The notes beneath the pieces were generated by a model that searched no databases, was not told the origin of the DNA, and saw only the letters and a list, made by a program, of their open reading frames with translations. A DNA stretch of 64,000 bases from Letharia columbiana. Its lineage: Eukaryota; Ascomycota; Lecanoromycetes; Lecanorales; Parmeliaceae. Position 1 is the stretch's first letter, and every line of letters starts with the position of its first letter. Both the position numbers and the translations under genes were made by a program. Location: NCBI RefSeq assembly GCF_014066305.1, contig NW_023501065.1:558001-622000 (forward strand), in the 5' to 3' direction. Shown in pieces: positions 5,501 to 58,082 of this stretch.

Positions 5501-6556
5501 TCACCGGAACCACCAGTTCACAGATCCCGTGATTCCGTCGCCTACGCCCTTGACACTATGCCACCATCCTTTCGGGATGAATAGACCGTCGCCTCTCCCA
5601 ACATGTGCTTCATATCCACCCTCGCCGGCCTCGTCCAGTACGGAAGTATCATTCCAGAGTTGGTCCTCGAGCAATCTCTTTTCCTCCCCCTTCATCATAT
5701 CTTCTCCTCTGAAGGCTGCGGACCCTGATCGGCCCAAAGCATTTTGGACCTGTTCGAAGACCTTGTCCCCGATCTCTGGGGGCAGGATTCGAACAATCTT
5801 ATGACCGGCGAGTTGTACAAAGAGGTTTGGGTCTTCAAGGTTGTTTCTGGGTCAGCATTCCTTCTGTAAGTAGAGATTTGAGGCGTGAAGCATGTCAGTC
5901 AGAGCAATACACTCTCAAGACATGTCTTACCACTCAAAATTGGGTAAAGGTTGAGGAGAAACCACTCCGAAAAGTGACTCACTAGGATCACGATGGAGTG
6001 GTGTGTAGGTGGGTGGAATACCCATCCAGATATTCGTATCATAGATATCGCCTATACCAGAATTTGCCACGATCTCAGGCGTGGGCAAGTCCACTTTCAA
6101 AGCTTCTGGTAGATTAGCAAAAGAAGCCTGTGCGAGATACAGTCGCTCTGAAGTCTCCCAGGATGCAGATTTGGTCCATTCCAGGAATATGTACAAAGGC
6201 ACGTCGGCCCGCTGGAAGGAGTCTTCGTACTGGTTCGCGGCAGATGCTGTAGACAGACGTGTAAACTCTAGAGGCACGATGGCATCACCGAACTTGCTGA
6301 GATGCGAGTAGTTGAGAGCCACTCCTCCCGTCCCATCTTGGGTGGTGCGGAACCACTTCTGTATGCTTGGAAGTGCAATGAAATGTGCTTTGGGTAGCAG
6401 AGCTGGCTTCGACGGGATAAAGGCATTATCGCGGAAGGTGTGCAAGCTGCTATCTTCCAGAGTGCGCAGTGAACGCCATCTTGCCGTCAAAGTGTAGATA
6501 GGACGAAGATTGATTCGGGGCAATGCGGTTCGTACTATGGAAAGGTTGTGGATCAT
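5501..6556 (-). CDS. JmjC/cupin-8 domain 2-oxoglutarate Fe(II) oxygenase
   Basis: Two exons, 6556-5983 and 5832-5501, give 301 aa. The 150-nt intron starts GTGAGT and ends CCTTGAAG; splicing recreates TPLHRDPNPNLFVQLAGHK, the JmjC core with HRD as the HxD iron ligand pair. The distal His lies in IPKGWWHSVKG, followed by a GSVNWWF C-terminus. The fold and ligands point to a protein or RNA hydroxylase of the FIH/JMJD5/cupin-8 group; the substrate is unknown. The N-terminus is Arg-rich with few acids, so mitochondrial import is possible. The intron is one of the introner-like introns in this window. Confidence 0.85.
5833..5982 (-). mobile_element. Introner-like intron (JmjC gene)
   Basis: A 150-nt intron, two to three times the usual size here. 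It holds the 12-bp palindrome AAGACATGTCTT, a near-5' segment CTTTTCGGAGTGGTTTCT and a 3' AATGCTGACCC branch region. Both features recur in introns of unrelated genes in this window. Confidence 0.6.
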
Positions 6557-7044
6557 CAGGAGGTTGGAGAGCCACTATTCGTAGAGAAGGAGCCTCTGCA
6601 ACCCTTGCCCAGAAGGATACTAAAGCTCAGCTGCGTTCCAGTTATTCCTTGATGCAGGCTAAGCTGCATTTGGCTAGTGTGGCTTGGCGCACAGTGCCGT
6701 TGCTGGAGGGAAGTACAAGTAGAGTACCGAGAGTACATGACTGCTCCCTAGATCCTAGATTCACTACTTTGATTCGTTGTACAAGTACCAATATCACTAT
6801 AGCAGTAGCAATACAGGTGGGAAAGGATTATTACTGCGGCCTCAAGGGCGCCATGATTCACTTTCTTGGGCCATGTTTCGCGGACAGGTCTCGGGTACAG
6901 ATAGAGGTATCAATAGGGCCTACAAGTAGACGCTCAGAGGACCCTTTAGGATTTCCGGACGTTGATACTCCTTCCAGTCCTATTAACTCAAGGTACCTTC
7001 TTCCAGTCTGCTCGATGGTCCTCGTGACCATGTAGGGACCTAAA
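6557..7044. other. Intergenic, about 0.5 kb
   Basis: Promoter side of the JmjC gene and 3' flank of ADE17. A 170-codon plus-strand frame overlaps it (6523-7035) but shows no family motif and runs antisense over the JmjC start; I treat it as chance. Confidence 0.5.
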
Positions 7045-10000
7045 TCAATGATGGAACTATGGCCTCAGGTTAGCCATGATCCGGCAATCTTTCATATGAT
7101 TTGACTTACAAGCCGCACGCTCTGCTCGACGAACGTGATATTCAGCTTTTCGCAAGCAGCGAATATATCCTGGTCTGCCACACTGCCTGTCGGACACGCA
7201 ACATATTTTACTCCGCTTCTGGACGCCCTGTATACGTTATCCGTAAAAGGAAACTAGGTACAAACATATAAATTAGCATGCGACAATGTAGAACCAAAAT
7301 TCGGAGAAGCTATCCTTGGCTAGCTCACAAATGCATCTGATGACACGGCCACTCCACTCAATTGGCTCAACCATTCTTCCCGTTCTTCATTCGTGAATGC
7401 CACAGGTGCCCTGTTGGTGTCGAAGTTCTGCAAGAAATCTTGTGTTTCAATGTCTGACTTCGATAATTGCCCCAAGCGTCCGCTACAGAGCATGTCGATA
7501 GCACTGCAAGATACTCGAGTCAATATCTATCATCTGAGGTTGGAACCGAGGTATGGAACTGCTCTGAGAAGCCGAGATTCTTAAAGGAGGCCTCGTAACT
7601 TATAATGAGGGTAGCAGGAAGGAAACTAACGAACAGGAGAAACTCACTTGCTTTTGTCGGCACGCTTGATCCCTTTCTTCCATTGCAAAGTACTTGTTCT
7701 TTCTACCCAATTTCGGAGTCAGCATGTCTTCTTCAAGCCAGGGTTTGAACCAAAAAGCCGTTGAAATGACTTTGCAGTCGCCAGACATATCTTGAAAAGG
7801 AAGGAATAAATGCAGAGGGGTGGATACCGTGAAACCTCATCCACCAGTTGTCGGCCTTGTCACCCGCCAACCTCGTACAATGAATGCGTGATTGCTGTCC
7901 AGCGCCTTCGAGGGAAGATAAGCTTCATCGATGTGTTTTGACAGAGCCAACCTGGCTTACCTAGTCCAATGACCTGGCCATTAAGAGCTACAGGATATTC
8001 GAAATTCAGCACGTCTCTTTCAAGACCCATGAGGAGTTGCGAAACAAGTTTGAGGGGTACGTGGAGAGTCCTGTCATGACTTTCGACATCGCTAACTCAA
8101 AGGGTACGTACCGTAGCACACTGAATTGGATTGCGTGTATTTGACGGCAATGGTCTGTTGAACAGATGGAATCAGCGTCAGCCCTTTAAACTTACAGCTG
8201 AATCATAAGACATGTCTCGAGACTCATTAGAAGCCGAAATACGTTCTCGCTCTGGAAATATGTTTCGCGGCTCAGATTCAACGGCGGACTGGGCAAGATG
8301 GGCTTTGAGAACTACGTACCGCAACTGTCAAATCTCGAAGAGCTACAGAAAAATGTAGAGTCAGTATCTAGAATCTCGAGGACAAGTAGAGGTCGAATGC
8401 TTGCGGGAGATGTCTCGTAATTGGCCTTAGGGCATTGCAAAATCACTCACCAGACTCTGGGAGCGGCGGGCAGTCTTTGGGAGTGATGATGGCATTGAAG
8501 GTATCCTTTGGGCTAATTTTGACGTCATTTCGAGGTTGCTAATACTCTCAAGGTCAGTAATACTCTTGGGCAATGAAGGATCTCGATTCGACTGTAACAC
8601 GACTCATGTTCGGTACCGATCAGGGCTGGAGAAGACCGGGCAAAAGCCTACCTGCAGCTGTAGTCCGTAGACGGTCCGACTTTCAGTTGTAGGAGGCTCG
8701 TACGCCTCGTCCATCTGCAAGATCATGTACCTTCGCAAGAATGAGTGGACATAACCGTTCACAGGCTCCGAAACTTACTTTCCGCCCTTCTTTCTCGACA
8801 GTATGTCGAACGCTTCTTTAGAATACCCAGGAGCAATCACACTAAAGAAAGATTGAAGGTCAGCGGATATCTTCAAGCTCCAAATGGAGGACGAGACGCT
8901 TCTCTAGAATCAAGCAGCACCCAAAGACATGAGGTCGATATGTTTTTAATGTTGTTGGTAGAACACGGGATAAACTTCACACACCCATCGGATACTTCGC
9001 GCGAGATAATCTGTGTTCGGGTTTTGGGTCAGCATTGCCATCCACTATAGACACCAGGGTTGCAAGCTAAGGCTAGTCCCTGAGTTGGTCACACGTACCT
9101 TTGCAGTCGGGACATCCACAGAATCTGAGAGCGCAACAATATCTCCAAAACTTGACCTACGGCGACGAGTCAGCATCTTCAGATCAAGGCACAGAAAAGA
9201 GAGATGAAATATCTTTGAGAAGCATATACTCCTAAAACGGATGCTTTGCTCTCAAACATAATTTACGGCTCGGATAGTGTTATAGATGGGAAAAGAGCCG
9301 TACATCCTGTCAGCTCCTCTCGCGCGCGTATAAGCCATAGCCAGAGCCGAATCCGAAAGTCCTTCAATATCTGCGACCATACACACTTCTTTCTCTCTCT
9401 CTGTCAAGGCAACGCCAACAGCTGCTCCGGCCGGCGAGACATGCTTGAAGCTTGCTGCTGCTGGGAGACCCAGGGCTTGCTTCAGCTCTTTCACCAGAGG
9501 CCAAGCATTAAGCGAGTCCAGCAGATTGATGTATCCAGGTGCTCCATTCAGTACTTTAAAAGGCAGTGGACCGTCTTTGCAGAATGCTGCTGCAAATTTC
9601 TGATGCGGGTTTGCTCCATATCTTAAGGACAATTGTTGGATGCCGTCTGAGGCATACTTCTTGCGAAAGAAATCTGCTATTGTAGTATCGAAGTCTGCAG
9701 TCTGTTCAAAAGCTTTGAGAGCGTAGAGTTGGCGACTTCTCTCAGTGACCTCGCCCTTGTCCATCGCTTGCAAGAATTCGGCATAATCTTGTGGATCTGA
9801 CAGCACACAGACGCGAGCATGATTCTTTGCTGCGGCCCGGAGCAATGTAACGCCTCCTATGTCGATGTCTTCCACGGCTTCCTCTATTGTGACGTTGATC
9901 TTTGCAATGGTGTCCTTGACTATAGTACTTCCGAGTCAGAATATCCTTGGGCCAAGATTTGACTCATATGATACGGCTCAAGAGTAACATCGTCCGTTGG

Positions 10001-10650
10001 GGCTCGATGATCGTTAAGATAAAAAAAGTTGGATCCAAGATGTTGCTTACACGGATACAAGTTGCAGACAACAAAATCCACTTTGTCTATACTTTGCTCG
10101 GCAAGGTCCTTTTCGTCACTCTCTGAGTTCGTGGACAGGATACCCGCATGAACTTTTGGATGCAGGGTCTTGACTCTCCCTTTCAGGATCTCTGGAGAAT
10201 TGGTGATTGCAGAAATATCTCTGTCCAGTAAAGCGTCTCAGCCTGTCGTGTAGAAAATGTTACAGAAAAGGACTTTCAGCTCACTCTACCTCGAAGCCTG
10301 CCTCGCGAATGACTGTAGGCCCAAATTTAGTCGTGCCGTTCCATAACAAGACATGTGCTGTACGCATTGCCCAGGAGATAACCAGAGAGCCAATACTTCT
10401 GCGGCATGTCTTCTTACGGACACAGCCAAAGTGCCGAGGAAGACAGTGATTGTTTCAGGAAAAGGACTCACGCTTCGCTGTGCCTCCCGAAGCCAGGAGA
10501 CGGATGTCATGTTTAATCAAGCCTTTAGCAAGGTCCAGTAGGCCCTGCTTATTGTACACGCTGAGGATTGCTAGAACAATGGAATTGACGGTTAGTGGGC
10601 GTTTGAAGATTAAAGCTGTGGGAGGGTTCACCAGTCTTCCTTGGTGCCAT
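7045..10650 (-). CDS. ADE17: Bifunctional AICAR transformylase / IMP cyclohydrolase
   Basis: Catalyses the last two steps of de novo IMP synthesis in the cytosol. I could follow the whole protein (~590 aa) from MAPRKT at 10650 to the terminal FHH at 7045 through about 18 exons. The N-terminal MGS-like cyclohydrolase part shows [37 protein letters not shown] and VVCNLYPF. The transformylase part shows RYGANPHQ, the catalytic KH in [67 protein letters not shown] and [13 protein letters not shown]. All motifs are intact and every splice site used is GT-AG, so the gene looks functional. Introns range from short to 165 nt; three belong to the introner-like class. About 17 introns is far more than I would expect for this gene in an ascomycete. 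Confidence 0.93.
8155..8319 (-). mobile_element. Introner-like intron (ADE17, after TVA)
   Basis: A 165-nt intron, GTACGT..CAG. It contains CGAGACATGTCTTATGATTC, with the AGACATGTCT palindrome shared with introns of other genes. Confidence 0.6.
9157..9303 (-). mobile_element. Introner-like intron (ADE17, within RM-SSFGD)
   Basis: A 147-nt intron starting GTACGGCTCTTTTCCCAT and ending ATGCTGACTCGTCGCCGTAG. It shares the TTTCCCAT segment and branch region with the zinc-knuckle and permease introns but lacks the AGACATGT core. Confidence 0.5.
10313..10471 (-). mobile_element. Introner-like intron (ADE17, after GGTAK)
   Basis: A 159-nt intron, GTGAGT..CAG. It carries two relatives of the palindromic core (AAGACATGCC and CACATGTCTTGTTATGG) about 70 nt apart, as in the permease intron. 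Confidence 0.55.
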
Positions 10651-14044: not shown

Positions 14045-14185
14045 TAGGTCGGAAAACCCTTTTTCGGGCCGAAAATTCGTCATACCCTTCCCCTAGAGTC
14101 TGAGTAGGAAACCCTGAAATCGCTACATTGACCGTTATTTTGTATGGGATCCTCACCAAAATTGACCGAAATAGAAAATAAACAG

Positions 14186-17100
14186 TTCTTTTAAATACAA
14201 CTTTTTATTAAGAATTCTAATAAAGAAATAGTCTTTTATAAAATAACTATTTAAATACCGTAGAATTTTTTTTTTCGATTTTTAATAAAATAGCTTAATT
14301 AATTATTTTTAGAAGATTTAAATTAGAGTTTTAAAAACTATACTTTTAACCCCCCTCTTATTCTTTAACGTGCACCGGTAAAACTCTAAAAATAATATCA
14401 AAATACTCGTTATATTTATAAGTCTATTTAAGATTATTATTATAGAATTCTCTAAGCTAGATTTTACATATTAATATTTCTTATATTTATATTTAAAATT
14501 TATTTATCTAAGCTATTATCTTAAATAATTTAGATAGCGACTACGCGTATAGCCTCTATTTACTAGGCGTATAGCCCCTATTTACTAGGCGTATAGCCTT
14601 TATCTATTAGGCGTATAACCCCTCTAATTAAATTAGCGACCGCGCGGAAGCTAATAAAATCTAATTAGAAATAATAAAGAACTCGTATCTAGTATCTTCG
14701 AGATTCTTATAAAGATACTTAATAATAGTAGAATAAGCCTCTCTATATCTCTCTCTATAGATTTATAATATCGAATAATTTTAATTTATCGATTAATAAG
14801 GTCTTTAAATAATTCTACTATAGCGATAGCTAATTAGCTAATTACTCTCTCTACTTACTATTAAAAATACGCCTATTATATTTAATTATTTACTATCTAT
14901 TAATTAGCTAATCTTTTTATATCTAAAATATATTAAATATAGTCTTATTACTTTATATATAGACCGATATAATACTATCTCGCTATTCTTATATAATACT
15001 ACCTCGCTATTCTCGTATAGTATTACCTCGCTATTCTCCTCTTATAGTCTATTTAGTCTATTTATCTTATCGCCTTTCTTATATAATATCTAGTTATTAA
15101 AATAATTATTATAGCGATTATAAAGCTTATAATATAGAGATAGATATAAAGATAGATATAGATATACGCTTTAATTCTTAGTCTTTAATATTAAAGAACG
15201 CGTTTATCTTATTCTTCTTCTCTTATTATTTTATCTAACTCGCCGTAATTACTAGTTATTATTATCGCTATATATACTTAAATCGAGAGAGCTCGCGTTA
15301 GATAAAGTCCTCGAAGACTTTCTCGCGAGTACGCTTCTTCTTCTTATTCTTAACTCTTATCGATCGGCCTTTAGATTAAATTATAGCTGATTTATTAATA
15401 TATAAAAGCGCGTTCGTAGTGTCATCCTTCTCCTTCTTATCGCTCTCCTCCTTATTATTCTTATTCTTACTTTTATAATAACGCGTATTAATAGACTTAT
15501 CGACTCGCTAATAAGAGTAAATATCTTTAAGTAATAATACCTTAGCTCTCTCTAATATATAACGCTCTATAACGTATATATATAATAGTCTTATTATTAT
15601 AGTAAAGTATTTAATATATAACTTTATAATATAACTAATTACTTTATTATAGTAAGATAGTATTTTTATAAGAGCGAATAATAAAACTTTAATATATAGG
15701 TCTCGAAAAATAGGCTTCTTGATATAAATAGAAAGGCGTATTTAGATCTTATTAAGTGCGATATTATAATTTAAACGCTTATTTATAAGTATTAAATTAA
15801 TAGCGTTTATAATAGTCTTTAAGTTATCTATAGTATTCTTCGATTAATTTATTACTCTATTATATAGAGTAAGAGTAATCTTATTAATAGATAAGCTATA
15901 TAGCTATCTCTTAAGCTTATTATTATTTAACTCCCCTCGCGAAGTAGCTTAATTATTAAAATATAGATATTAATTAATTTAAAAGATTATCTACTTCTTC
16001 TTTTAAGAAATTAAATTATTCGCGATATAGATAATCGCGAATAGATAGTACTTAATATAATTCTTCTATAAGGCGTTTTATTTCTATTTAAATAACTTCT
16101 TAATAGCTATATATATAATATAACGAAAGTCCTTCTTAAAGATATTTAGTTTCTCTTACTTATTAAAGTACTAACTATAATTCGATATAACGTTATTCTT
16201 AATATATTAAATATAAAGTATATACTCGGCTCTTAAAAAGACGAGTTTATAGACTCTAATTAAAGCGTTTTACGCGTTTATTAGAAGTATATTTAAATAA
16301 GAAAGATTAAGCTTATTATATAGGGCTTTAAGTTACTTTATTATCTATACGTAGTTCTTAATATATTTTAATTTTATAAAGGCGAACCTTACGTAGAAGA
16401 ATATATTAAGGGCGATAATTTCGATAATTATAAGAAGTAAAAGCTTATATTTATTAATTTTATATATCGCGTCTAAGATTAATACCTCTAAATTAAGTTA
16501 TAATATTCGTTATAATAATTTTCTAGCGAAGAAGAAAAACTTAATCTACTACGTTCGCTAATTCTTCTTTATATATATAAATTAATTCTCTTATATATAT
16601 AGCTATCGTATTAAGGCCTATACGAAAATTAAAGATTTAAGCGCCTCGCTCTTAATCTTAGTCTTAATATTATAGACGTCGCGTGGCTTTAGAATAAGAT
16701 CTTTCTCGTCTTAATTAAGTCGTAAGAATAAAATAATCTATTTCGATAAGACTTTAGAACGCGTCTAATTAACGATAGTATTCTAAACGTTCTAAGTTAT
16801 AGCGATTTTACGTATTATTAAATATACTTTAAATAAGATATAGTTATAATTATAAGTGAAATTAATAATTATAAGAGTAAAATCCGTCTGAATATCGCTT
16901 ATTCTAATACGCTACGTAATAGTCTAAAACGAATAATTTATTAATCGACTAAATCTAATACGCTTATCTATACTCTTATTATTCTTTTTTAACTTTTTAC
17001 TATAATCACACCGCAGCTATATCTTTCTTATAAGTTTATTCTTAAAAATAATTATACGCCCCTTAAGGATAGTATAGTTTTAAGATTCTACGTACTACTA

Positions 17101-17685
17101 TATACGTAGAATAAGCGTATTAAATAAGATATTCGTTTAGTCATCGAGAGATAAAGCTAGGGCTATTACTATTAAGCGAAGAATATAGACGAGCGATAAG
17201 ATAAGAGTTAGTTTTACTATTATAAGATATTCTACTATAAAGATATTCGACTCGAAGATACTAGATATAAGTTCTTTATTATTTTCGATTAGATTTCGTT
17301 AGCTTTCGCGCGGCCGCTAATCGAATTAGAGGGGCTATACGCCTAGTAGATAGAGGCTATACGTCTAGTAAATAGAGGCTATACGCCTAGTAGATAGAGG
17401 CTATATATATAGTTACTATTATAATCTATTAAATAATTTATAATTTTAAATAATTATTTAATAATTTATAGATATAAGTAAAGATGTATAAAGTTTTATT
17501 AATATTATTTTTTAATTTATATAATTTATTTAATTATCTTAAGACTTTTAGAAAAAAAATTAAAAAGCTTAATAACTTTAAAGACTTCGAACTTCAAATT
17601 TAGGAAATTTAATATATTTTTTTTATATATACTAAGAATATATTTATAAATTTTAATTAAAAGTGATAGTTCGGTTATCGAGTAA
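14186..17685. mobile_element. RIP-degraded element with inverted arms carrying 22-bp tandem repeats
   Basis: About four copies of a 22-bp unit near GGCGTATAGCCTCTATTTAC lie at 14545-14620, and the same units occur in inverted orientation at 17327-17405. Both sets abut a GCGACCGCGCGG-like block facing inward (14634-14647 and 17306-17316). Long inverted arms with subterminal tandem repeats recall Mutator-like (MULE) elements. The 2.65 kb between the arms is extremely AT-rich with no readable frame. Outer limits are approximate; the superfamily is inferred from architecture only. Confidence 0.5.
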
Positions 17686-19930
17686 TAATATATCGAAGTT
17701 CATTTGCAAATCTGAAAAGTTCCTTTCCGCACGATTTCCGCCGGGTCCGCACTATAAGCACGATTTAGCCTATTCAGCAGACTTTGCCTATATTCAACCC
17801 TTTCCGCCGATTTAGCAACTATCCTAATCCTTTTCGCCAGTTCTATCAGTTTAGCAACTTCAAAATTTTCAGCAACTTTAAAAATTTTGCGTAATGCACT
17901 CTAATATACTCTAAGTACTATTCTACATACATATAGCATTAATATATTAGTCTCAGTAATTCAGACTTACGGCTAGCCGGGGTATCTATAGCCAGCCCTA
18001 TACTCATGCCTCGCTTCGGGGGTTAATCATATCGCAAGCTCATTACGGTATACCCCTCTCTTAGAGTCTAAGTAGGAAACCCCCGAATCGCTATATAAAT
18101 CGTTAATTTATATAGGCCTATCGTAATAATCACCCGTTATCTGAATGTCGCGACTTCCTCTATTTTTCAGTTATTATCATATTATCTTTTAATATCAATT
18201 AAGAGGATAATAGGCCTTTCGAGATCTCTAAATAAGTATATAAACTTTTTATTATAATCGAATAGCTCGTTATTATCGTATAAGCTTATTCGAATACGCG
18301 TTCTCCGCTAATAATTATAGTATCTACTTTTAGTCGATTACTCTTCGATAATTAAATTTTAGACGATAGCGTATTATATTTAATATTATTAAAAGATTAT
18401 ATAACGAGTTGAGTGTAATAATTAAATTATAAGTTTAATCGTATTATTATTTAATGAAAATCGAGTACTAAAGCTATCCCCTCTATATATATATTTATTA
18501 ACTTAAAGATATATTACTTAGAAATTAGAGGGAGTATAAAATATATATCTTAAATAATTTTAACGCGTTTAACGCGTTTAAAATGGACTTAAGCGTATAA
18601 GGAGACTATAAGGGGCGCTTAGATACGCGATTTTCTCTCCGACGACGATAGCGAGGTATTTTCGAATTATATATACTAACCTCTTTATAGCTTATAAATA
18701 TATCCTTTCTCCTGATGAACACGAAGTTTTAAGACATTTGGCGGATTAGTTCTGGAGCAAAGAAAAAAGTTATATTTGAATCCGGGTATGAAAGTAGGGA
18801 GATAACCTCCATGACGACGACGCAGACCTTCCTGCATTCAAAGACGTCTTTTTCTACGTTCCATATACCTATAAGAGACTCCGACGTCGTGCGAGATATT
18901 CTTATTCATCGATGTCGCCGCTATTAATATCTGACTTCGCACTAAAAGGATGAATTATCTCCGCTTCGCTCTCCGCTCTACTCTCCGCAAGTTCGGTAGC
19001 TATACAATTGCTTGCATGCATGCTTGCTTGTTTACACGCATCGCCGCGGCGACTCTCGTAAGCTGGGCCGTCCAAAAAATAGGGGGAGACTGCGGCGTCT
19101 GACCGAAGTAATGAACTGACTGGCGAGGCCACGGCATTTTCCCCAACACGCCGCGCCGTCGGTCCGGCGAGTACCATGGCGGTTACCCCGAGGATTGATG
19201 TACTATGGGGGAATTCCTGTGTGGTGCTGCGCGTCTGTTGAGACGTACGGCGTTCTTGAGTACTGGTGCCGCTGCTATGGCTGAGTTAGCTGAGTTTTTT
19301 AGTGGAATGGAATTGGAAACCTACTTCTTAACCACTGCACCACAGCTCCTAATTTGACGAGGGCCTATTTAATTATTTATTCGACTTTTTTTCAAGAATT
19401 CCAAAAAGGCCATATCACGTAGTTGCGCATTTTTGTTAAGGATCATATGTACGCAGGGTGTGAATATTACATATCGGGCGATACACCAAAAAATTAAGTC
19501 TTGGCAGGGTTTCCCACTCAGACCCACCTCAAGGCCGGTGGGGCCAAGCTGAGACTATCAATATATATCATCATCAACATACGCATCATTATGCGCCATA
19601 CCAGAGCATCACCCACGCGACTAATTTCATTAAATCGTCTAATTCCGTAACCAAATTTGAGTTGGCGTTAATACTCGTCGCCGTAGAACCTTACCGTCGC
19701 AACGTCGATTATTAGAACTTTTCTTTTTCGTGCGTATTGCTACTAAACTAGCAGAACTGGCGGAAAAGGTGCGGATTCTAATCAGATTTGCTGAACCGGG
19801 CAGAATTTGGGCGGATTCTAATCAGATTTGCTGATCCGGCGGATTTTGTGATTTCCGCGACACACGCGCGATCAGCAATTTCAAATTTTGCAGGAACTTT
19901 TCAGATTTGCAGATGTTATAGATTATTAAG
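17686..19930. repeat. Inverted arms (about 200-240 bp) flanking the inner element copy
   Basis: The segment at about 17686-17890 resembles the reverse complement of about 19690-19930. Both contain GCAAATCTGAAAAGTTCC, CGCCAGTTCT and TAGTTTAGCA-like blocks. The arms enclose the copy at 17948-19557, which suggests a foldback-type element into which that copy inserted. Identity is lowered by C-to-T changes in the left arm. Confidence 0.5.
17948..19557 (+). mobile_element. TAGTCTCAG-family element, copy A (strongly RIP-mutated left half)
   Basis: Starts TAGTCTCAG at 17948 and ends CTGAGACTA at 19557. The flanks TTAATATA and TCAATATA match in 7 of 8 positions, the difference being C to T; the left repeat sits one base off the terminus. 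The sequence matches the reverse complement of 35743-37488 along its length, but its first ~770 bp have turned AT-rich while the rest is little changed. No transposase is recognisable, so it looks like a non-autonomous derivative. Confidence 0.7.
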
Positions 19931-20353: not shown

Positions 20354-22565
20354 ATGCCAGATCTCTCTAATACCGTTCATGTCGTCAATGGATACGACAA
20401 AGATGCCTACACTTACTATCCTGTCATCATCGTGGGCGCTGGGGAATCGGGCATAGCAATGGCTTGTCGCTTGAAGGAGAAACTGGGCTTCGATCAGTTC
20501 CGCATATTTGACAGACAAGCTGGTATGGGAGGAACATGGTGGATCAACAGATATCCTGGAGTTGCTTGTGATGTGTTAGTCTCCCTCTACCGGACTCGAT
20601 AATTGCTGAAGCCGGCACAGTCCTGCCGTATTCTACAGCTTCTCCTTCTCGCCGAACCACAAGTGGTCTGCCTATCATCCTCCGGGGGAAGAGATTATTC
20701 GGTACCTCCAGGATGTATGTGAGAAATACCAGATTGTCGACAAGATCCAACTGAATACAGACGTGTCCGAGGTGCGATGGCTCGAGGACGAGGAGCTATG
20801 GGAAGCAACTCTTCTTCACATGATGCCTGGTACTGGTGATCTGTCTACCAAAGAGCGAAAAAAGATGATGACTGAGAAAGGACGCGAAAGCGTGTACCTT
20901 AAGGAAGAGAAGGTCAAAGCCAAGATCATATGCAGCGCTGCCGGCGGTCTCGTCGAGCCGAACGCATGGCCAGACAGTGTCCCAGGCCGGGATCTTTTCC
21001 AAGGCGATGTATTCCACTCTGCTCGGTGGGACTATAACGTCGACCTTCGCGGTAAAGATGTCATCGTTGTGGGCACAGGCTGTAGTGCCGCGCGTACGTA
21101 CATTTCGGAGCTGATTCTTCCTTTTTGGTAATGAAGTTGAGTCGCAAGACATGTTTCAGGAGCAAGAAGACCTTTCTAAAGCAGAGACCTGTCTTGCAAC
21201 TCCATTTCCTAGCTCGAATAAACAGTGCTGACTCCGAAATCTGCGTAGAATTCGTGCCTCGATTGTCGAAAGAGCCATACAACGTAAAGTCTGTCCTTCA
21301 AATCATGAGGTCCCCCCCTTGGGTAGTGCCTCGTCCCGGTCCCCTTTTGGGTCTTATCAAGCAGGAGACTTGGGAGAAGTGGACACCAAGACTCTTTCCT
21401 CGTATTCCTGGACTTGGTAGGGCCTATAGAACTTTTTTGTTCTGCCTTAGCGAACTCGACTTCTTTCTTATATTTACCGGTAAAAACGCCGCAGCAAAGA
21501 CGCGCAAGAAGGTCGAAGCGCAGCTAGTTCAGCATATGAGGTCTATCGTACCCGAGCAGTACCATGAGATTTTAACCCCAAATTATGGCGTCGGCTGCAA
21601 GAGGAGAATATTCGACGCTTTCTGGCTTGAGAGTCTCAACGATCCCAAGATTGACCTCACGACCCAGCCCATCACCAGCCTGCAACCCAAGGGGGTCACG
21701 TTGGGACCGGGCCGCACCTACCCTGATCCAGAAGACAAGGCCAGCAAAGCACCAACAGACGAAAAGCACCTCCCAGCCGACGTCATAATCCTCGCCAACG
21801 GCTTCGAACTCACTACGTGGCTTTCACCACTCAAGGTAATCGGCAAAGGCGGTGCCGTCATGCAAGAGGTATGGGATGAGCGTGGGGGTCCACAGGCCTA
21901 CATGGGAAACGCAATGGATGGCTTTCCCAATTTCTTCATCATTTTCGGGCCGAACACCGCAACAGGACATTCCTCTGTAATACTCGCAAGCGAAAATATG
22001 GTGGAGTACACGTTGAAATTCATCAAGAATATACTGAGGAAAGACGTCAAAACCTTCGACGTGAAGAAAGAAAAGGAAATAGCATGGACGACCGAGATGC
22101 AAGAGAAGTTGAAGGGCACCGTCTGGCATAGTGGTGGATGTCATAGCTGGTACAAGACAGCCAATGGCTGGAATGCTACTGCTTACCCGTAAGCACTATC
22201 CTTCTCAGGCTCCCCATTCGCGCCATCAAGCAATCTCGCAAGATGATTACTCAACTGCTAACATTCTCCAATAAAGATTTTCGCAGGTGGACTACAGTAT
22301 CCGATGCATGTTTCCGAAATGGAGTGATTGGAACATCCAATACACGACCAAGGGACTCATCAAGCAGCGGCTAAAGCAAACACTTCGAGTCGTCACCCTT
22401 CTTGCGAGTATTGTGGGACTATATCATATACGGAAAGATGTAAGAGGTGGATTGAGCGCATTTGATAGCTCGATGAAGCAGAGGGTCAAGTTTGGACTGT
22501 TGAGATTATTAGTTTGGGTGGAGAAGGGTGTTCGTATGTTGCCTGAGCAGAGTACGATTTTGTGA
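20354..22565 (+). CDS. Baeyer-Villiger-type flavin monooxygenase
   Basis: Four exons (20354-20574, 20621-21093, 21249-22188, 22277-22565) give 640 aa. The FAD-binding motif VIIVGAGESGIAMA is near the N-terminus, followed by GGTWWINRYPGVACDVPA. The BVMO fingerprint FQGDVFHSARWD fits FxGxxxHxxxW(P/D). A second Rossmann motif VIVVGTGCSAAQ would bind NADPH. The C-terminal part has ILANGFELTTW and NFFIIFGPNTATGHSS. Such enzymes insert oxygen next to a ketone or oxidise other carbonyl substrates. The last exon adds a possible hydrophobic segment (VVTLLASIVGLYHI). The 155-nt second intron is introner-like. The gene starts 245 bp after the transposon island. The upstream ATG at 20129 adds only low-quality residues, so I start at MPDLSN. 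Confidence 0.88.
21094..21248 (+). mobile_element. Introner-like intron (monooxygenase gene)
   Basis: A 155-nt intron, GTACGTACATTTCGGAG at the 5' end and TGCTGACTCCGAAATCTG near the 3' end. The two ATTTCGGAG/CTCCGAAAT blocks are reverse complements, so the ends can pair. The core reads CGCAAGACATGTTTCAGG. Confidence 0.65.
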
Positions 22566-23193: not shown

Positions 23194-25210
23194 TCAGCGC
23201 CGGCGCAGCTCGGCCAGTCGTTCTTCGTGCTCCTCTTCCTGCTTTTGAACGGCTGCTCTCCTCGCCAGGTCCGCATCCCGCTTCTTCTGGTTGATTTTTT
23301 CCTCCAATTCGTGCTCAAACTCCTGCCTCTGTTGGCGCTTCTTCTGGGCCAATTCCTCCTCGTGCTGCTTCTGCCTGACACGCTCTTCCTCTTCGAATGC
23401 CTTCATACGAGCTTCGATAGTCTCGAGACTGTGATCTGCCGAGTGCTCGTTCGGGTCGGAAACCGGTGTAGGGTGGTCTTCGATGCGGGTAGGAGCCTGT
23501 GAAGAGCGGTGGTCTATTTGGTTGGGAGCCTGTGAGGGGCGATCTTCGTTTTGAGTATGCGCCGGCGAATGGTGGTTGTCTTTCTGGCCAGAAGCCTGCG
23601 GTACGCCCTCCTTTTTCCCGCCGGAGGCTGGTGGAACATACGCTTCTCTCTGGCTAGAAGAGTGTGAGTGGTGCTCTTCTTGCCGGACGGAAGCCTGCGA
23701 AGGAGTGGCACCGACTCCATGCGGCCTATGTTGAGACGGGTTGGAAGGTGGCTCTCCAAGCATCTGAGGTTCAACTGATAAAACTTCGCTAGGCTCTAGC
23801 GACATTCGCAAGGATTGGAGAGGCGATACAAGTGGTGTCAAAGCCGAGCCTCGCTTTAGTCGTGGATCTCGTGGTGATATATTGGGTTGAGTCGATGGAG
23901 GAGTGAACGTTTTTCCGCGCGCTTGTGTCAAAATTGTGAGCTGTTCGGAGGTGCTTGTTGTACTCATACGTCCCTGTAGACTTGAGCCTGGTATGGGGGT
24001 ATGCCGAAGACGTTGCAAGTCTCGGTCAGTTGTGGTTTCAGACACGCATTCCTCTACAGGCGCAGACTTCTGTGGCTGTGAGTCCTGACGGGGACCGGAC
24101 CTAGGATCGAAGACGTTGCGAGAGGCCTGCCGAACCTCTGGTCCGTCTCTGCTGGGCAACACAATATTCACAGGCTTCTTTGGTAGAGAATCTTTCCCAT
24201 GCGCATGCTCTAATAATTCTTTTCGTGCACGGTAAGAAGCTGGCTCAGTGGGCGGATGCGGATTGCAGGCGCGAGGCCGCGACTTTCCACTCTGGGTGAG
24301 CTCAAAGTCCTCACAGTACTTTGCGGTGTGACGCTCTTCCCCACAGCGAGTGCAGGTCATGGGGCAGCGGGACCAATAGTGGCTATATTCTGGAGTCAGC
24401 ATGCCCCTTCCGAGATTCAGAGCCGAATCATAAGACAAGAAGACCAAATTCTCTACAGTTTCTCAGAACATGTCTAACGAGCTGCATTGAGGTCCAATAA
24501 TGGGAAAGGACCACTCCAAAATGTACCGACCTGATTGAACGGCAGCCCCAGCATATCATTGGCTTATCACAGTCTGAGTATGCGTGATCTTCCATACACA
24601 TATAGTTCTTGCACCAATACCTCGGAGGCGGTCTGTAATTGTCTGATGTTCTAATAGCCTCCTCCTCCTCCTCCTCTGTACCACGACGGCGCTTGATAGA
24701 GCGGTCAATAGCCTCATCATCGAGAGGGCGTTTCAGTTCGTATCCACCGAGGCGTAACACATTTGAGGGTGGGGGAGAAGAACCGTAGAACCCACGGCTT
24801 TGGGCCTCAGATGCGTTCCTCCTGTCAGGGTTGACAGTCCGAGATGAGCGTCGCGACGGTGCTGTGTCAGGCATGCTCGTGTCTTTGCGTTCTTTCGTGG
24901 GCATTTGGATTAGCTGTTTCGGATCGTGGCCAGTGGATGGTGATTTTTCGTTGGGGACAGAAGCAGCAGCGGCACTGTGATCATCAGATTGGCCGCGTGA
25001 AAACTTCAGAGCCAACGACGCGTCATCTCGTGGTGTTGTGTTGCTAGAATATTCGGCCCGGTGCCAGATCTTATTAGAATGATGTCGAACCGCCTTTGAT
25101 TCCGTAGCAATGGTTGATGATCGGTCTTCTGAGGAAGTCTCACCTTCTGCAGCTGGCCGATAGCTGTCGTAGTAACGATGGTCCCAACCCATATCCTGGT
25201 CACGAACCAT
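23194..25210 (-). CDS. Zinc-knuckle and coiled-coil protein of unknown function
   Basis: Two exons, 25210-24531 and 24382-23194, give 622 aa. The N-terminal ~195 residues are Ser/Thr-rich and disordered, with a basic RSIKRRRG patch that could be a nuclear signal. Around residues 197-250 lie Cys/His-rich knuckle modules (CKNYMCMEDHAYSDC, CWGCRSISHYWSRC, CTRCGEERHTAKYC), and the intron falls inside the middle one. A long low-complexity middle follows with repeated SQAxxQ-type units. The last ~90 residues are a charged coiled coil (EEERVRQKQHEEELAQKKRQ). CCHC-like knuckles suggest RNA or single-stranded DNA binding. The protein ends in LAELRRR; an adjacent open frame hints that the C-terminus may once have been longer. 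Confidence 0.7.
24383..24530 (-). mobile_element. Introner-like intron (zinc-knuckle gene)
   Basis: A 148-nt intron. The 5' part reads ACATTTTGGAGTGGTCCTTT and the core TTAGACATGTTCTGAG. A GTCTTATGATTC block is shared with the ADE17 intron 8319-8155. The 3' end is CATGCTGACTCCAGAATATAG. Confidence 0.65.
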
Positions 25211-35559: not shown

Positions 35560-35628
35560 ATTAAACACCCCCAATAGAAAACCCACCAAAAAAAAAAAAA
35601 AAACCCCCAAAAAAAAAATCCCAACGGG

Positions 35629-35685
<57 letters not shown>

Positions 35686-35742
35686 AAAAAAATTTAAAAA
35701 AAAAAAAAATTAATTTTTTTGGTTTTTTTTTTTTTTTTTTTT
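35560..35742. other. Homopolymer tract of doubtful sequence quality
   Basis: About 180 bp made almost only of A runs, then T runs, with a few C or G. It ends exactly where the element copy B should begin and replaces the first seven bases of its terminus. This looks like an uncorrected or collapsed assembly join rather than genomic sequence. Confidence 0.7.
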
Positions 35743-37488
35743 AGCTTGGCCCCACCGGCCTTGAGGTGGGTCTGAGTAGGAAACCCTGCCAAGACTTATT
35801 TTTTGGTGTATTGCCCGATATGTAATATTCACACCCTGCGTACATATGATCCTTAACAAAAATGCGCAACTACGTGATATGGCCTTTTTTGGAATTCTTG
35901 AAAAAAGTCGAATAAATAGTCAAATAGGCCCTCGTCAAATTAGGAGCTGTGGTGCAGTGGTTAAGAAGTAGGTTTCCAATTCCATTCCACTAAAAAACTC
36001 AGCTAACTCAGCCATAGCAGCGGCACCAGTACTCAAGAACGCCGTACGTCTCAACAGACGCGCAGCACCATACAGGAATTCCCCCATAGTACATCAATCC
36101 TCGGGGTAACCGCCATGGTACTCGCCGGACCGACGGCGCGGCGTGTTGGGGAAAATGCCGTGGCCTCGCCAGTCAGTTCATTACTTCGGTCAGACGCCGC
36201 AGTCTCCCCCCTTTTTGGACGGCCAGGCAAATAAGCAAGCAAGCATGTATGCATGAAAATTATATAGCGACCGAACTTGCGGAGAGCAGAGCGGAGAGCA
36301 GAGCGGAGAGCGAAGCGGAGATAATTCATCCTTTTGGTGTGAAGTCAGATATTGGTGGCGGCGACATCGATGAATGAGAATATCTCGCACGACGTCGGAG
36401 TCTCTTATGGGTATATGGAACGTAGAAAAAGACGTCTTTGAATGCAGGAAGGTCTGCGTCGTCGTCATGAACGAGCTGATCGAATGTCGCTTGGTGATCT
36501 CAACGCTGTGATTCCAAGAAAACATTGGAGGACATCAGGCTCTAGGTCTATCAGCAGTTAGTGTATTCCTCATCAAAGGAGGTTGGAAGTTGAGCAACAT
36601 TCCCTTCACTTTGAACGTCAAAATGTTCTTCTCCCTACTTTCATGCCCGGGAATCAAATATGACTTTTCTTCTTTGCTCCAGAACTGGTCCGCCAAATAT
36701 CTTAAAACTTCGTATTCGTCAGGAGAAAGGATATTCCTGTAAGCTATAAAGAGGTCAGTATATGTAGTTCGAAAATACCTCGCTGTCGTCGTCGGAGAGA
36801 AAATCGCGTACCTAAGCGCCCCTCACAGTCTCCTCGTCCGCCTAAGTCCGTTTTGAACGCGTCAAGCGCGTCAAAACCATTCAAGGTATGTGTTTTATGC
36901 TCCCTCCAACTCCTAAGTGATGCACCTTCGAGTTGATAGATGTGTATATAGGGGGGATAGCTCCGGTGCTCGATTTCCATCAGACAGTAACACGGTCAAA
37001 CTTGTGATCCAATCATTACACCCGACTCGTTATATGATCTTTCAATAATGCTGAACACGATGCGCCATCGTCTGGAATTTAATCATCGGAGGGTGACCGG
37101 CTGGAGGTGGGTGCTGTAACCGTCAGCGGAGAACGCGGGTCCGGATGAGCTTATGCGACAACAACGAGCTATCCGATCATAATAAAAAGTTTATGTACTT
37201 GTTCAGCGACCTCGAAAGGCCTATTGCCCCCTCAATTGATATTAAAAGACTATGTGGTGATGGCTGGAAAATTGGAGGAAGTCGCGACTTCCCGATAACG
37301 GGGTGATTATTGCGGTGGGCCCATACAAATTAACGGTCAATGTAGCGATTCGGGGGTTTCCTACTCAGACTCTAAGGGAGGGGTATGCCGTAATGAGCTT
37401 GCGATATGATTGGCCCCCGAAGCGAGGCACGAGTGTAGGGCTGGCCATAGGTACCCCGGCTAGCCGTGAGTCTGAATTACTGAGACTA
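35743..37488 (-). mobile_element. TAGTCTCAG-family element, copy B (inverted relative to copy A)
   Basis: Reverse complement of the 17948-19557 element, ending CTGAGACTA at 37488; the other end has lost TAGTCTC at the homopolymer tract. GC content stays close to that of the flanks, so RIP has been light. Conserved landmarks include TCTGAGTAGGAAACCC at both ends and a TGGTGCAGTGGTTAAG motif at about 35950. The 111-codon minus-strand frame inside (36190-36525) has no recognisable domain. Probably non-autonomous. Confidence 0.7.
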
Positions 37489-37588
37489 ACTGCTTATGGT
37501 TCCATCGCTTCACCGCTTGGCCAGCTGATAATTTCTGTATGTAATATGGACAGTCGCACAATGAGTCAGTCTGTAAATGCAATCTCCC

Positions 37589-49183: not shown

Positions 49184-49280
49184 GTTTGCGTATCCGTACG
49201 TCTTCTCAGAAGATCAAGAGTCTCTATTCCAGTATTGCAGCGAAGCGATACATGTGTTCGACCACTAAGGGCTTGGGGTA

Positions 49281-54172: not shown

Positions 54173-54295
54173 GTCGGCGGCTGGTAAATAGACATGACGA
54201 TTCACATCAAATCCCGGAGGAGATGGTAAGTCCGGATTTGGCTCAGGCGTTGGCTTTAGATTAGCACATCAAATATCACTTGACATGCAGCATCT

Positions 54296-55231
54296 TCACG
54301 TGCCACCGTCGTCTCCACTATTGCTGCTTTCGCTAACTACTTTCTGTCGTAAAACTACAAGTACACCCAGTCAGCCACTTTGCAACCATTTCCTCCTCCC
54401 TTCAACCAAAAATATGAAAGCAACGAGCGTGCACTCACCATCTTCGACAACACTCAAATTCCCCTGCTTCCCCTGCACGATCCTCTCAAGATCCTGCAGG
54501 TTCCTCCCCAGCTCCTCGACTTTCCGTGAATAGAACTCGCGCGCAGCTGGTGGTGTCTGGATGTAATTGAGATCAGTTCGGATACTCCTCCCAACACCTG
54601 TGTGGTCGGTCGACAGACCTTCTCAACGTAGAAGCCCGTTCCGATATCCACTAGGACCGCATCTGTAGATGCCAGTTTGCCGGGGACGTAGAGTGAGGGT
54701 GTCAGAGGGACGAGGATGGGTGTGCCTGTGGTGGACCGGCTCTCATCAGCATTCGTGCCTCCCATCCCTCTGCGCTCTTTCTTTCCTTCCTCCCCACCAT
54801 CCTCATCTCGGACCTCCCCATCTCCCTGCCCTCCTCTCCATCAATCTGTACCAATTACCTACTCCCGACGATCCCGCCCGATCCCCTTTCCCCTTCCCCT
54901 TCCCCCTCCCCGTCCCTCACAACAACAAAAAAGAAACCCAACCTACCCTCATCTCTCCCCAACCCATCCCGAACACTGACGCCACAGTCCCTGAACTTCC
55001 CCTGCGCGGCCTTGAGCCGACTGAATGATGTTGTCATATGCTGCAGTTCTTGCGTGAGCTGGTTTTTCACGTTGTTGAGTTGGGCCGTGGGGAGGGAGGA
55101 GAGGTCGACTGTTTGTTGTTATCAGCTGGGAAACGTGTGGGATGTGGTGGAGGGGTCTATTTGGAGGAACGTGTTGGAGAGTGCGGTGGGGGCGTACTGG
55201 TTTGAGGTTGGGATTGAGTGGTTGATGCCAT
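54296..55231 (-). CDS. PFD5: Prefoldin subunit 5
   Basis: Five exons (55231-55198, 55108-54947, 54725-54619, 54556-54439, 54354-54296) sum to 480 nt, 159 aa. The alpha-type prefoldin layout is clear: first helix LPTAQLNNVKNQLTQELQHM, then SFSRLKAAQGKFRDC, the beta hairpin PILVPLTPSLYVPGKL and VLVDIGTGFYVEK, and the second helix EFYSRKVEELGRNLQDLERI ending SVVEDVLRQKV. Prefoldin 5 (Gim5) is part of the cytosolic hexamer that hands nascent actin and tubulin to the CCT chaperonin. Four introns in 159 codons is dense. The gene lies tail to tail with the DUF7905-like gene, 123 bp apart. Confidence 0.9.
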
Positions 55232-55595
55232 GTTGTTGCTGAAGGGAGGTGGGGGGGAGGGGGGTGCTGAAGGAGTTTGGAAATGGGGGTTCTTTGGCGG
55301 AGCGGAGGGACCTCGGCTGGGTGCCATTTTGGCCAAATTTGGTGTTGGTTTTTGTGGGCCGTTGATATCATCATAACTTCGTACGTTGTCGAACCATCAT
55401 CTACTCAATGCATTTGCTTACATCCATCGAATGGAACGTTCTCATCATGTGCATTGACTTAAAATCTTCTGAATTTTTTTACAATTTGGGTATCAAGTCT
55501 CGCAGCGTTGCATCTATCAAAGTTTCTGACTGTCTTCCGCCGTCTTAATTGTAGAATTTATCAAGGAGGACAAAGAATTTGTTCCTAAGTCTCTG
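55232..55595. other. Intergenic, about 0.36 kb
   Basis: Prefoldin promoter and 3' end of the permease gene. No gene supported. Confidence 0.5.
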
Positions 55596-58082
55596 TCAGT
55601 ATCGATTCACTTCACCCCAAATTCTGTCTGCTGACTTTGAAGGCGTCGGCACATAATCTCTAGTGTATTCTTCTATCACATCAACGTCCTTCAATAGGTC
55701 AACAGCATTGGGCTCTAGCCATCGCGTCTTCTTATAAAATTTCCAGAAAATGAAGAGGACCGGGAAGACACCAATCATTGTATACGAAAAGAGGAATGTT
55801 GGAATGCTCCACTGTCCGGGCAGAAATACGGTATAGCCTCCAACAAAGGTCATGACGAAACAACCGGAGAGCGCGTACCATGCGAGGTAAGGCTGGAACC
55901 GGCCTTTATAGGGCAGAGAATCTCTTGATAGGCCTTGAGCATCGCAAGCCTTCTTGAAGCGGATAAAGGTGAAGGACATAACCGAGAAATTGATCAGTTG
56001 AGATGCGGTGACCTGATATATCTCAGCCTGGAGCAATACTTAGGCATAACCCATACAACATACCAAATTGACGAACCATTGCAGCACCACTGCCGCTCCA
56101 GACTGGTGATTGTGGAGTCAGCATTACTCTTTCGGGAGGTTTTTTGAATCGCGAGACATGTCTTAGGAGCACAGAACTCTCTGGACATGCTTGACGACTC
56201 ATAAGACTGCATGAATGGGGAAGAGTTGCCTCGGAAATTATAACGTACGCTGACCTGCAGGAAGCTCAGCAAGCTCAGCGCCAGCACCAATAACACACAA
56301 TATACCGGAACGCCACTCCTCGTACACCTAGTGAATATCTTTGGCGCCTTGCCTTCCAGTGCCAATCCAAGGAGACTTCGACTCGCACAGTACACATAGC
56401 TGTTGCCTGCACTGAACGCTGCCGACAGAACGAGCGCATTGACAATATCTGGCAGCACTTTGATACCAAGGCGATTCATAGCGACCACGTACGGACTTGC
56501 TGCTGCTCCAGGTTCCGAACTTGTAAATGCATCTACAAGCTCTGGATCATTGTACGGTACATTGATTCCTACAGCCAGGCTACCGAGCACAAAAAAGGCC
56601 ATCAATCGTGCAAAGACCTTGTTGTACGCCCTCGGCATCACTACCCGTGGATTTTCGGCCTCGCCTGCCGCCATGGAGACATAATCGGGACCGGCGACAG
56701 TGAAACTTGCTTGGATGAGGCATTGCAGAAATCCAAGAAAGCGGCCAAGTGAGCCTGTCTTATAAAGCTCGGCGAACGATCCAGGATTCTTCCAGTAGCG
56801 AAAGCCGAAACGGTCGTGGTTTGGATTGCCACCAAGCATGGTGATGAAGGTGTAGGCAATGAGGCCGACAATGAGTGTTACTTTGCCTAGGGCAAGCCAG
56901 AACTCAGATTCGCCGTACCATTTCACCGCAAAAACATTGATAAATCTTATCTCGAGCTATTAGCGATTCGATTTCCCTATGTCGAAAGGAGCATGTACCC
57001 ATATAGGACGATGATGATGGCAATGATCCCGCCTGTTGGGACGGCGTCACTCCAATAATGGATGATGAGATTACAAGCGACGACTTCAAACGGGACGAGC
57101 ATGGCTTCGAAGACGAAGAAATTGTATCCTGCAGCGACACCGAAGGCTTCGTCGACGTATCGGCCAGCAAAGCGGATGAAGGGGGAGGATATGGGAAGGT
57201 AAGTGACCATTTCAGCCATAGCTAAACAGTCATTTTGTCAGCATTTCATGTGATATTGAGGAACACGCTGCTTTTGCGAATTCCAATATTGGGCTGTATC
57301 TTCAGGTCTCGCCGGTCATAGGGCCATGTTTTACGGATTCGAGTTCACAGACGTCCTTTCTGATTTCTTCCGATAGTCAAGCTACCGAAGAATCGGTGGG
57401 AGCGATCTCATCGTCTAAGTCCAACGGGCACCCTCACACTCACGACGAACAGAAGAGAAAGTGGGTTTCGTACAAATCGTGACACATAATATGAATGTAC
57501 ACCTAGATCACAGGTTGATAAGATACGGAGTCTTCCTGTTTTAAAGACAGGGGTCCAAGAAGGTACGCTCCCTCTTCCATCCAACGTCTGTGAAGTGTGT
57601 CCTCTGGGATGTTCCTAACAATCTTTTTCGAGTCGACAGGGATGGAGGACTTACCAGAAGGCGAATGCGATGAAGAGTGACCCTGGACCACCCTGAACGA
57701 GACCGTGACCTGTTCTCGCAGTCGGCAACCTTCGGATTGCATTGGTGTGAGCTCGACGCACCTATCTGCACATAGAGCGCTGTTCCAATTGTCCTGTGCA
57801 AAAGGAGCAATCCTCAGCATCCGTCTTCCACGAAAGTAGCGTTTTCTTCTTCACATACCCTCCAATTCCAATCAGCTGTATATGCCTTGGCTTCAGCTTG
57901 CGGTGCGTGCTATCGAATAAGGGCTTGTTGGAGTCATGCGAGCTGGGCGAAGATGTTCTGACTTCCTCGTCGACACCGTGCGCGACGGGTGGTGCGTCCA
58001 TACCATGTGTCTCGTCCTTCTCGTTGTTATGGATCGAAGGCACGTCGGCCATGGTGGGGCGATCGAGGCCAATCGAGGCCAT
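55596..58082 (-). CDS. Amino-acid permease (fungal YAT family)
   Basis: Eight exons (58082-57859, 57793-57762, 57709-57655, 57502-57474, 57221-56999, 56945-56249, 56102-56064, 56012-55596) sum to 1716 nt, 571 aa. The N-terminal cytosolic part has the family entry motif KPRHIQLIGIGGTIGTALYV, then GLVQGGPGSLFIAFAFW. Further blocks are AEMVTYLPISSPFIRFAGRYVD, GGNPNHDRFGFRYWKNPG and WFVNLVTASQLINF. About twelve hydrophobic segments are visible. It should import amino acids through the plasma membrane with protons; substrate unknown. A 29-nt micro-exon (57502-57474) encodes WCTFILCVTIS with its neighbours; without it the reading frame cannot be carried from FAFW to MAEMV. One intron (56248-56103) is introner-like. 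Confidence 0.88.
56103..56248 (-). mobile_element. Introner-like intron (permease gene)
   Basis: A 146-nt intron, GTACGT..CAG. The 5' part reads ACTCTTCCCCATTC, the core TAAGACATGTCTCGCGATTC, preceded by a related half GTCTTATGAGTCGTC. The 3' branch region is AATGCTGACTCC. Confidence 0.65.

Follow-up and report, generated by a model that had tools for sequence, protein, structure and literature searches.

Introner-like introns of Letharia columbiana: families A, B and C, and flanking exon bases that follow the intron lineage in family A

Background

How new spliceosomal introns originate has long been debated as an open question, and the mechanism in fungi is disputed (reverse splicing, DNA transposition, break repair). 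Introner-like elements (ILEs) of Dothideomycetes were reportedly treated by van der Burgt in 2012, and Huff is said to have described introners as DNA transposons in 2016. Here, we analyze introns of this type in a stretch of 64,000 nucleotides from Letharia columbiana (contig NW_023501065.1, positions 558,001 to 622,000), referred to as the window, and their relatives in the genome (52.2 Mb, 161 contigs). Upon inspection of the letters alone, seven long introns in five unrelated genes of the window had been proposed as one introner-like family (the sequence-only reading).

The ILEs of Dothideomycetes are present in many copies in unrelated genes, with several families per genome that decay to ordinary introns (Collemare 2015, PMC4457414). 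The symmetrical stwintrons of Hypoxylaceae and Xylariaceae and their cropped sister introns have terminal inverted repeats (TIRs), no target-site duplication (TSD) and no bias in the adjoining exon bases (Fekete 2021, PMC8469720; Fekete 2025, PMC12403724). ILEs are thus established in fungi (PMC4457414, PMC9860276), and those families found in ascomycetes are stated to lack both TIRs and TSDs (Gozashti 2022, PMC9860276).

The introns analyzed here are probably fungal ILEs: related spliceosomal introns of families A, B and C that would have copied themselves into many genes in a mobile form defined by splicing, at a dinucleotide set by the element lineage. They share with the ILEs of Dothideomycetes that they are multicopy spliceosomal introns in unrelated genes, with several decaying families, a stable structure and unshared gains. 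The host, however, appears to be lichen-forming and not a Dothideomycete. Copies of the ILEs of Z. tritici and F. fulva are reported to be 98-99% identical, while those found here reach at most 92% to the query (best 40 of 102 candidates). The target here is C|A or G|N, depending on the lineage (the bar stands for the intron between exon positions -1 and +1), whereas ILEs are attributed a preference for AG/GY (credited to van der Burgt in PMC8469720).

The likeness to the Hypoxylaceae stwintrons covers intron-wide inverted repeats with unpaired terminal Gs, seamless insertion, the absence of a TSD and the restriction to the coding strand. It extends to complementary elements of 9-10 nt near the termini, the 3' one directly following the branch site. 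Family C, with its duplicated core and an internal AG|GT in some copies, recalls the relation between stwintrons and cropped introns, with two-step splicing only putative. Families A and B, in contrast, are single introns, and no recurrent internal acceptor-donor was seen in their consensus. Moreover, family A shows a strong and inherited bias at positions -1 and +1, while none is reported for the exon bases next to the stwintrons. Introners interpreted as transposons (PMC9860276) are likewise repeats that extend between the two splice sites and recur in many genes, and family A adds inverted ends to this likeness. It differs from them by the lack of a TSD at C|A sites, and from the ascomycete families of that study, which have no TIRs, by these same inverted ends. 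In the titles and abstract openings of the openly licensed literature searched, target choice inherited by intron lineage is undescribed, and none is on the subject of introners in lichen fungi; both words co-occur in two papers.

Intron families in the genome

As the sequence-only reading expected, multicopy groups exist: the introns at 21094 (in a flavin monooxygenase (FMO) gene) and at 56103 (in an amino-acid permease gene) belong to such groups, with similarity up to the splice sites. The genome searches scored the best 40 of 102 candidates for the former query and the best 40 of 58 for the latter, so that the counts are lower bounds. For family A (ca. 155 nt), the query retrieved itself, at least 39 further matches and one 23-nt piece. 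These matches cover at least 145 of the 155 nt (mostly 1-155) and are 79-92% identical among the best 40 of 102. Two of them, L013 and L014, have identical flanks and are perhaps one locus assembled twice; they were merged before flank counts. For family B (ca. 147 nt), the query retrieved itself and at least 39 matches, which cover 123-146 of 146 nt and are 80-87% identical among the best 40 of 58. In both families, what is repeated is the intron itself, bounded by its GT and its AG. Profile searches resulted in 182 hits. The analysis kept the 135 that were complete at either end with sufficient flank (98 A, 37 B) and dropped the other 47.

The diagnostic parts of the families are their ends, GTACGTACATTTCGGAG and TGCTGACTCCGAAAT. 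With up to two mismatches, the 5' motif GTACGTACATTTCGGAG has 167 genome matches compared to 11 for the reversed control, a count that includes inverted 3' ends and is not a copy number. The shared 3' motif TGCTGACTCCGAAAT (up to one mismatch) has 257 matches compared to 3, and the 5' motif of family B has 42 compared to 4. The motif counts are 167 and 257, and the matches to the 21094 query, at 79-92% identity, are not near-identical. The CTGAC in the 3' block resembles the branch site consensus; sharing of this part by many introns is expected anyway.

The sequence-only reading had taken AGACATGT as the core of the family. This motif occurs nine times (six distinct places) in the window compared to 2.2 expected, and none of 100 shuffles reaches nine. 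These places are confined to the introns: six of the seven contain the motif, and the seven together account for 1,070 of the 64,000 bases. The motif is enriched in the window and common to six introns; it is part of a hairpin arm and not a defining core. Because it lies within the hairpin stem, it may occur in both orientations. The full palindrome AAGACATGTCTT was rejected as family core: it has 11 exact genome places compared to 4 for the reversed pattern, and the end motifs are far more diagnostic.

Family C (ca. 218 nt) has 12 matches including the query. Eight of these cover at least 208 nt, and full-length matches are 67-81% identical. It resembles family A with a duplicated core and is more diverged; in our proposal, it is older than A and B. 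Of 11 aligned copies, 4 have an acceptor-donor-like AGGT where the repeats meet, with a variant or none in the rest, and family C is possibly a stwintron-like compound. At L023:1278-1654 (C34:217253-217629), a family C intron is followed by a family A intron with zero bases between them. The family C copies are:

L085:749-966, minus strand
L071, L076, L082, L095, L096 and L106
L023:1278-1500
L139-L142

Introns of the window

The introns of the window are listed here, including two that were not among the seven of the sequence-only reading (7703..7827 and 9920..10050).

21094..21248, plus strand: family A introner, 155 nt, in the FMO gene; exon flank C|A, splitting a Gln codon
56103..56248, minus strand: family B introner, 146 nt, in the amino-acid permease gene; flank C|T
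5833..5982, minus strand: decayed introner in the gene for a JmjC/cupin-8 protein; flank A|A; family B profile match of 33 bits
8155..8319, minus strand: decayed family A introner in PurH (ADE17); flank G|A
24383..24530, minus strand: decayed family A introner within a CCHC zinc-knuckle coding stretch; flank G|C
7703..7827, minus strand: additional family member in PurH, overlooked in the sequence-only reading; exact TGCTGACTCCGAAAT; flank G|A
9920..10050, minus strand: weak candidate for a decayed PurH member, with CTGACTCGGAA close to its 3' end
9157..9303, minus strand: PurH intron with TGCTGACTC and without AGACATGT
10313..10471, minus strand: PurH intron with AAGACATG and ACATGTCTT, which are able to pair; moderate fold

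All seven originally reported stretches start with GT and end with AG. Where checked, the joined exons give back conserved protein motifs: HRDP|NPN in JmjC, ADR|MSSFGD in PurH, SAA|QFVP in FMO and LQVS|SGA in the permease. The ends of the FMO intron are complementary, as had been noticed, with inverted repeats ATTTCGGAG / CTCCGAAAT near both termini and a fold that spans the whole intron.

The proposed membership stands for part of the seven. The introns at 21094 and 56103 are multicopy, and those at 5833, 8155 and 24383 are decayed members. Together with 7703-7827, these three are tied to the families at E <= 0.001 by profile search within the loci searched. The 5833 intron has two relatives in the genome (74-78% identical). 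A BLAST search of the genome with the 8155 intron matches itself alone; its covariance model score is 20 bits (E 0.003) and its family A profile score a weak 24 bits. The 24383 intron likewise matches itself alone, with a weak 18 bits for the A profile and 10.3 bits (E 0.65) for the covariance model. At least one more intron, 7703-7827 in PurH, is a clear family member (17 bits with E 0.014 for the covariance model and 17 bits for the profile between 7708 and 7793). The weak candidate 9920-10050 reaches 7.5 bits (E 3.1) for the covariance model and has three mismatches to the 3' motif. Membership of the 9157 and 10313 introns is unproven. The former has a covariance score of 8.8 bits over part of its length, which is not significant (E 1.5), and no match in the profile search. 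The latter matches itself alone in a BLAST search of the genome and has a minimum free energy (MFE) of -48.7 (z -1.85).

The seven introns had also been described as two to three times the usual length. This is roughly right, as judged from a sample of four ordinary introns nearby, read by eye (42, 46, 51 and ca. 90-98 nt). The PurH gene (ca. 10700-7100, minus strand) has five long introns of 125-165 nt, of which two or more are family members, and several short ones besides. Introners seem to accumulate in certain genes (PurH; also L091, L090 and L026).

Splicing, strand and host genes

Removal of the copies by splicing is inferred from the reading frames. In the 91 copies that have 500 nt of flank or more, the median length of the open frame across the spliced junction (shorter side) is 58 amino acids in sense compared to 23 in antisense and 34.7 and 33.0 upon shifts of 1-2 nt. 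The sense frame is longer than the antisense frame in 71 of the 91 and longer than both shifted frames in 62. Neighboring copies, 60-1,200 nt apart, are on the same strand in all 37 pairs from 29 loci. This count leaves out nine pairs less than 60 nt apart (mostly pieces of one element) and two repeats.

In a Pfam scan of 20 spliced host segments (19 picked by eye from the list of spliced copies), 17 had a match (9/10 and 8/10), one of them below the curated cut-off. The best families are all different and include phosphomannose isomerase, Ras, malic enzyme, P450, GTP cyclohydrolase II, CobW, aconitase, peptidase M13, MFS and ABC proteins. The host genes are thus unrelated, as had been proposed for the window, and the multicopy groups in unrelated genes support the view that the similarity comes from the introns and that these are introner-like.

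Absence from relatives

The sequence-only reading suggested comparing presence and absence in relatives. This was done at the protein level for the insertion points in the JmjC, monooxygenase and permease genes, using the 120 best homologs of each. A total of 358 of the 360 read across the site (JmjC 119/120, monooxygenase 120/120, permease 119/120). Four FMO entries that keep GTGCSAAQFVP, with a one-residue length difference further on, were counted as reading across. No residues are gained or lost at the three sites. This points to recent gain and to seamless insertion at these three sites.

Two exceptions, P0051 (JmjC) and P0248 (permease), continue from exon sequence into the intron. P0051 is 97% identical over 65% of the JmjC protein. 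Both entries come from the same or a sister organism, in which both introns are present. They show that the homolog set includes unspliced open frames, but some other entries may be spliced gene models, as P0121 spans all three intron positions of the FMO gene. A length of 440-475 amino acids, which is approximately the stretch between the two flanking introns, is found in 35 of the 120 FMO entries and is expected for unspliced frames without the 21094 intron. The best named homologs of the JmjC protein are from lichen-forming fungi, Mycoblastus sanguinarius (62%) and Lecanora helva (59%), and the top full-length homolog has 85%; these point to a lichen-forming Lecanoromycete as host.

Exon bases flanking the copies

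In family A, the exon bases at -1 and +1 follow the intron lineage, and no other base within six does so clearly. Among copies of at least 100 bits, 25 of 63 are at C|A, while CA accounts for 7.0% of nearby dinucleotides (p 2.5e-13). A tree was computed from 81 copies of at least 60 bits with the flanks excluded. On this tree, 12 parsimony changes are needed at -1 compared to 30.9 upon shuffling, and 19 at +1 compared to 32.9, with none of 200 shuffles as low. At -6 to -2 and at +2 to +6, the number of changes is close to that upon shuffling (between 22 and 196 of 200 shuffles are as low). A strict test with the 65 copies having unambiguous ends requires 11 changes at -1 (26.9 shuffled) and 11 at +1 (21.4 shuffled), with none of 500 as low; there is a slight effect at -2 (31 compared to 35.5, 17/500 as low). 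In these strict copies, C at -1 is followed by A at +1 in 27 of 27 cases and T at -1 by G at +1 in five of six. The nearest relative has the same flank pair in 41 of 65, where 15.1 are expected and 26 is the maximum in 1,000 shuffles. CA and TG, found in 27 and 5 of the 65 strict copies, are one dinucleotide on opposite strands. This might link the two lineages, or relate to the preference of repeat-induced point mutation (RIP) for CpA.

A TSD was looked for at the junctions, and 29 of the 65 strict copies, including all 27 at C|A, have no base common to both and hence no TSD. An element that starts a few bases inside and duplicates TA was rejected, as this would delete four coding bases and is contradicted by the homologs that read across. 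The codon divided by the 21094 intron encodes Gln in all 120 relatives. Four further C|A hosts, chosen for a recognizable protein, were compared with relatives from the PDB. The split Gln is kept in the Rab11 and malic enzyme hosts. In the phosphomannose isomerase host, Asp|Lys is kept at the junction, which is certain for the A at +1 only. Since the junction residues are conserved in four of the five C|A hosts, the target site existed before the insertion.

In family B, C is found at -2 in 20 of 36 copies and at +2 in 21 of 36, and +2 is weakly inherited (2/200 shuffles as low).

Hairpin structure

The family A consensus (155 nt) folds into an end-to-end hairpin in which the first and last G alone are unpaired (MFE -65.1, z -9.1). 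For the consensus of the 50-100-bit group, the values are -74.2 and -10.8. CTCCGAAAT directly follows the presumed branch site CTGAC. With decreasing profile score, the median z of individual copies is -3.8, -3.3, -3.1 and -1.1, compared to -0.2 for an exon control. We read the falling score as a series from young to old, along which the fold decays. Inverted matches of the terminal 17 nt have a median of 12 of 17 compared to 4 in shuffles. Family B has kept the inner stem (consensus z -5.5) and has lost the terminal stem (4/17, which is the shuffled level).

Within the window, the introns at 21094 (z -4.3) and 56103 (z -2.8) fold clearly better than shuffles. Those at 9157 (z -2.3) and 10313 (z -1.9) are somewhat better, the one at 8155 is worse (z +1.6), and z is above -2.5 in five of the seven. 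RNAalifold with 21 family A copies gave a partial fold in which 3 of 29 pairs are doubly changed. Among six subfamily consensuses, a two-sided change that keeps the pair is found in 3 of 57 pairs, and 60 of 192 variable-pair cells are unpaired. As two-sided changes are few, we make no claim that selection maintains the hairpin. Rfam returned one match near the 21094 intron, located outside of it and far below the gathering score.

Proposed mechanism and alternatives

We propose that the mobile form is the excised and folded intron, as RNA or as a DNA copy, and that its extent is defined by splicing. It would enter transcribed genes on their coding strand, being joined in at a short recognized site, the dinucleotide of which would be set by the element lineage. 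A mobile form defined by splicing is suggested because families with differing ends nevertheless have exact splice-site ends, and because family B has spread without a terminal stem. We speculate, at somewhat short of an even chance, that each lineage carries its own target dinucleotide. This might be achieved by a guide inside the intron which picks the dinucleotide, or by an intermediate that takes along one exon base per end and needs a matching target. Neither of the two is strongly preferred. Intron columns that co-change with -1 or +1 do so with only three to eight independent pairs each.

Several observations weigh against this proposal. Inheritance of exon bases is awkward for a spliced RNA intermediate, which has no exon attached. 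On the tree of family B, inheritance of -1/+1 was looked for and is absent. One-base duplication is compatible with 36 of the 65 strict copies, the exon base being equal to the base at the far intron end. One of the five C|A hosts, L050, has Gln where its relative has Glu, so that a pre-existing CA is unsupported there, and the permease codon after the intron codes for Ser while relatives have Asn (73/120) or Ser (32/120). In 20 of 91 copies, the antisense frame equals or exceeds the sense frame in length, and in 29 at least one of the shifted frames does so; selection alone could produce the strand agreement. The 36 full-length family B copies examined exist despite the lost terminal stem, which indicates that this stem is not always needed. 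Finally, the full-length inverted repeat resembles a DNA transposon.

This last point leads to the alternative that we take most seriously, although we regard it as rather unlikely: a non-autonomous element similar to miniature inverted-repeat transposable elements, the ends of which double as splice sites, which makes no TSD and survives only where it is spliced. The repeat of family A from end to end, with a median of 12 of 17 terminal nucleotides matching, fits such an element, and a DNA intermediate carrying one base per end could explain the inherited -1 and +1. It is at odds with the missing duplication at C|A sites and with the multiplication of family B without terminal repeats. Also, among 16 inspected loci with the 5' motif (L068 has no recognizable 3' end nearby), no full-size partner with the same ends was found; no transposase search was made. 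If the flank pattern resulted instead from selection for splicing, with each subtype being spliced well only next to certain exon bases, the location of -1 and +1 right at the splice sites and the G at -1 in many older copies would be accounted for. G at -1 is usual for ordinary introns, while C is not the usual preference there. Identical end sequences, however, are flanked by C|A in one clade but by G|A in a different one, and the Gln codon at 21094 is conserved, so that we consider this explanation improbable.

It is very improbable that the flanks are shared because whole gene segments were duplicated, in which case the insertions would not be independent. The one pair whose flanks are identical (L013/L014) would agree with this. 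Among the 81 copies, only two pairs have 30-nt flanks that are more than 60% identical, and this only upstream (67%; downstream 27%); the 17 hosts are in different families. Because their 30-nt flanks are unlike, the copies are taken as separate insertions. Least credible of all is that these are ordinary long introns which are alike through splice signals. The branch-site-like CTGAC could be explained in this way, and 9157 and 10313 are supported by little beyond short motifs, but an identity of 79-92% over at least 145 nt in at least 39 further places refutes this for 21094 and 56103.

Other features of the window

Very AT-rich repeats are found at 14400-17700, with 22-nt tandem units that recur inverted (14540-14623, 17330-17417). 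The region resembles the pattern of RIP. A large pair of inverted repeats (17947-19550 and 35743-37489) has arms of 607, 419, 189 and 179 nt, which are 80-97% complementary and separated by 16-19 kb. Long pure A runs and T runs at 35588-35742 are perhaps an assembly artefact.

Significance

With the proposed ILEs, a lichen-forming fungus is apparently added to the known introner hosts. A rule at the level of single bases that is inherited with the intron lineage is a constraint on any mechanism of intron gain. Inherited flanks are not predicted by plain reverse splicing of a lariat that has no exon attached, whereas a DNA intermediate carrying the flanks or a guide encoded in the intron would predict them. 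The question of mechanism thereby becomes testable in one genome plus its sisters. If true, target choice inherited by lineage would be new for seamless spliceosomal intron gain, and flank letters that track the family tree of the introns would be a clue to how new introns are born.

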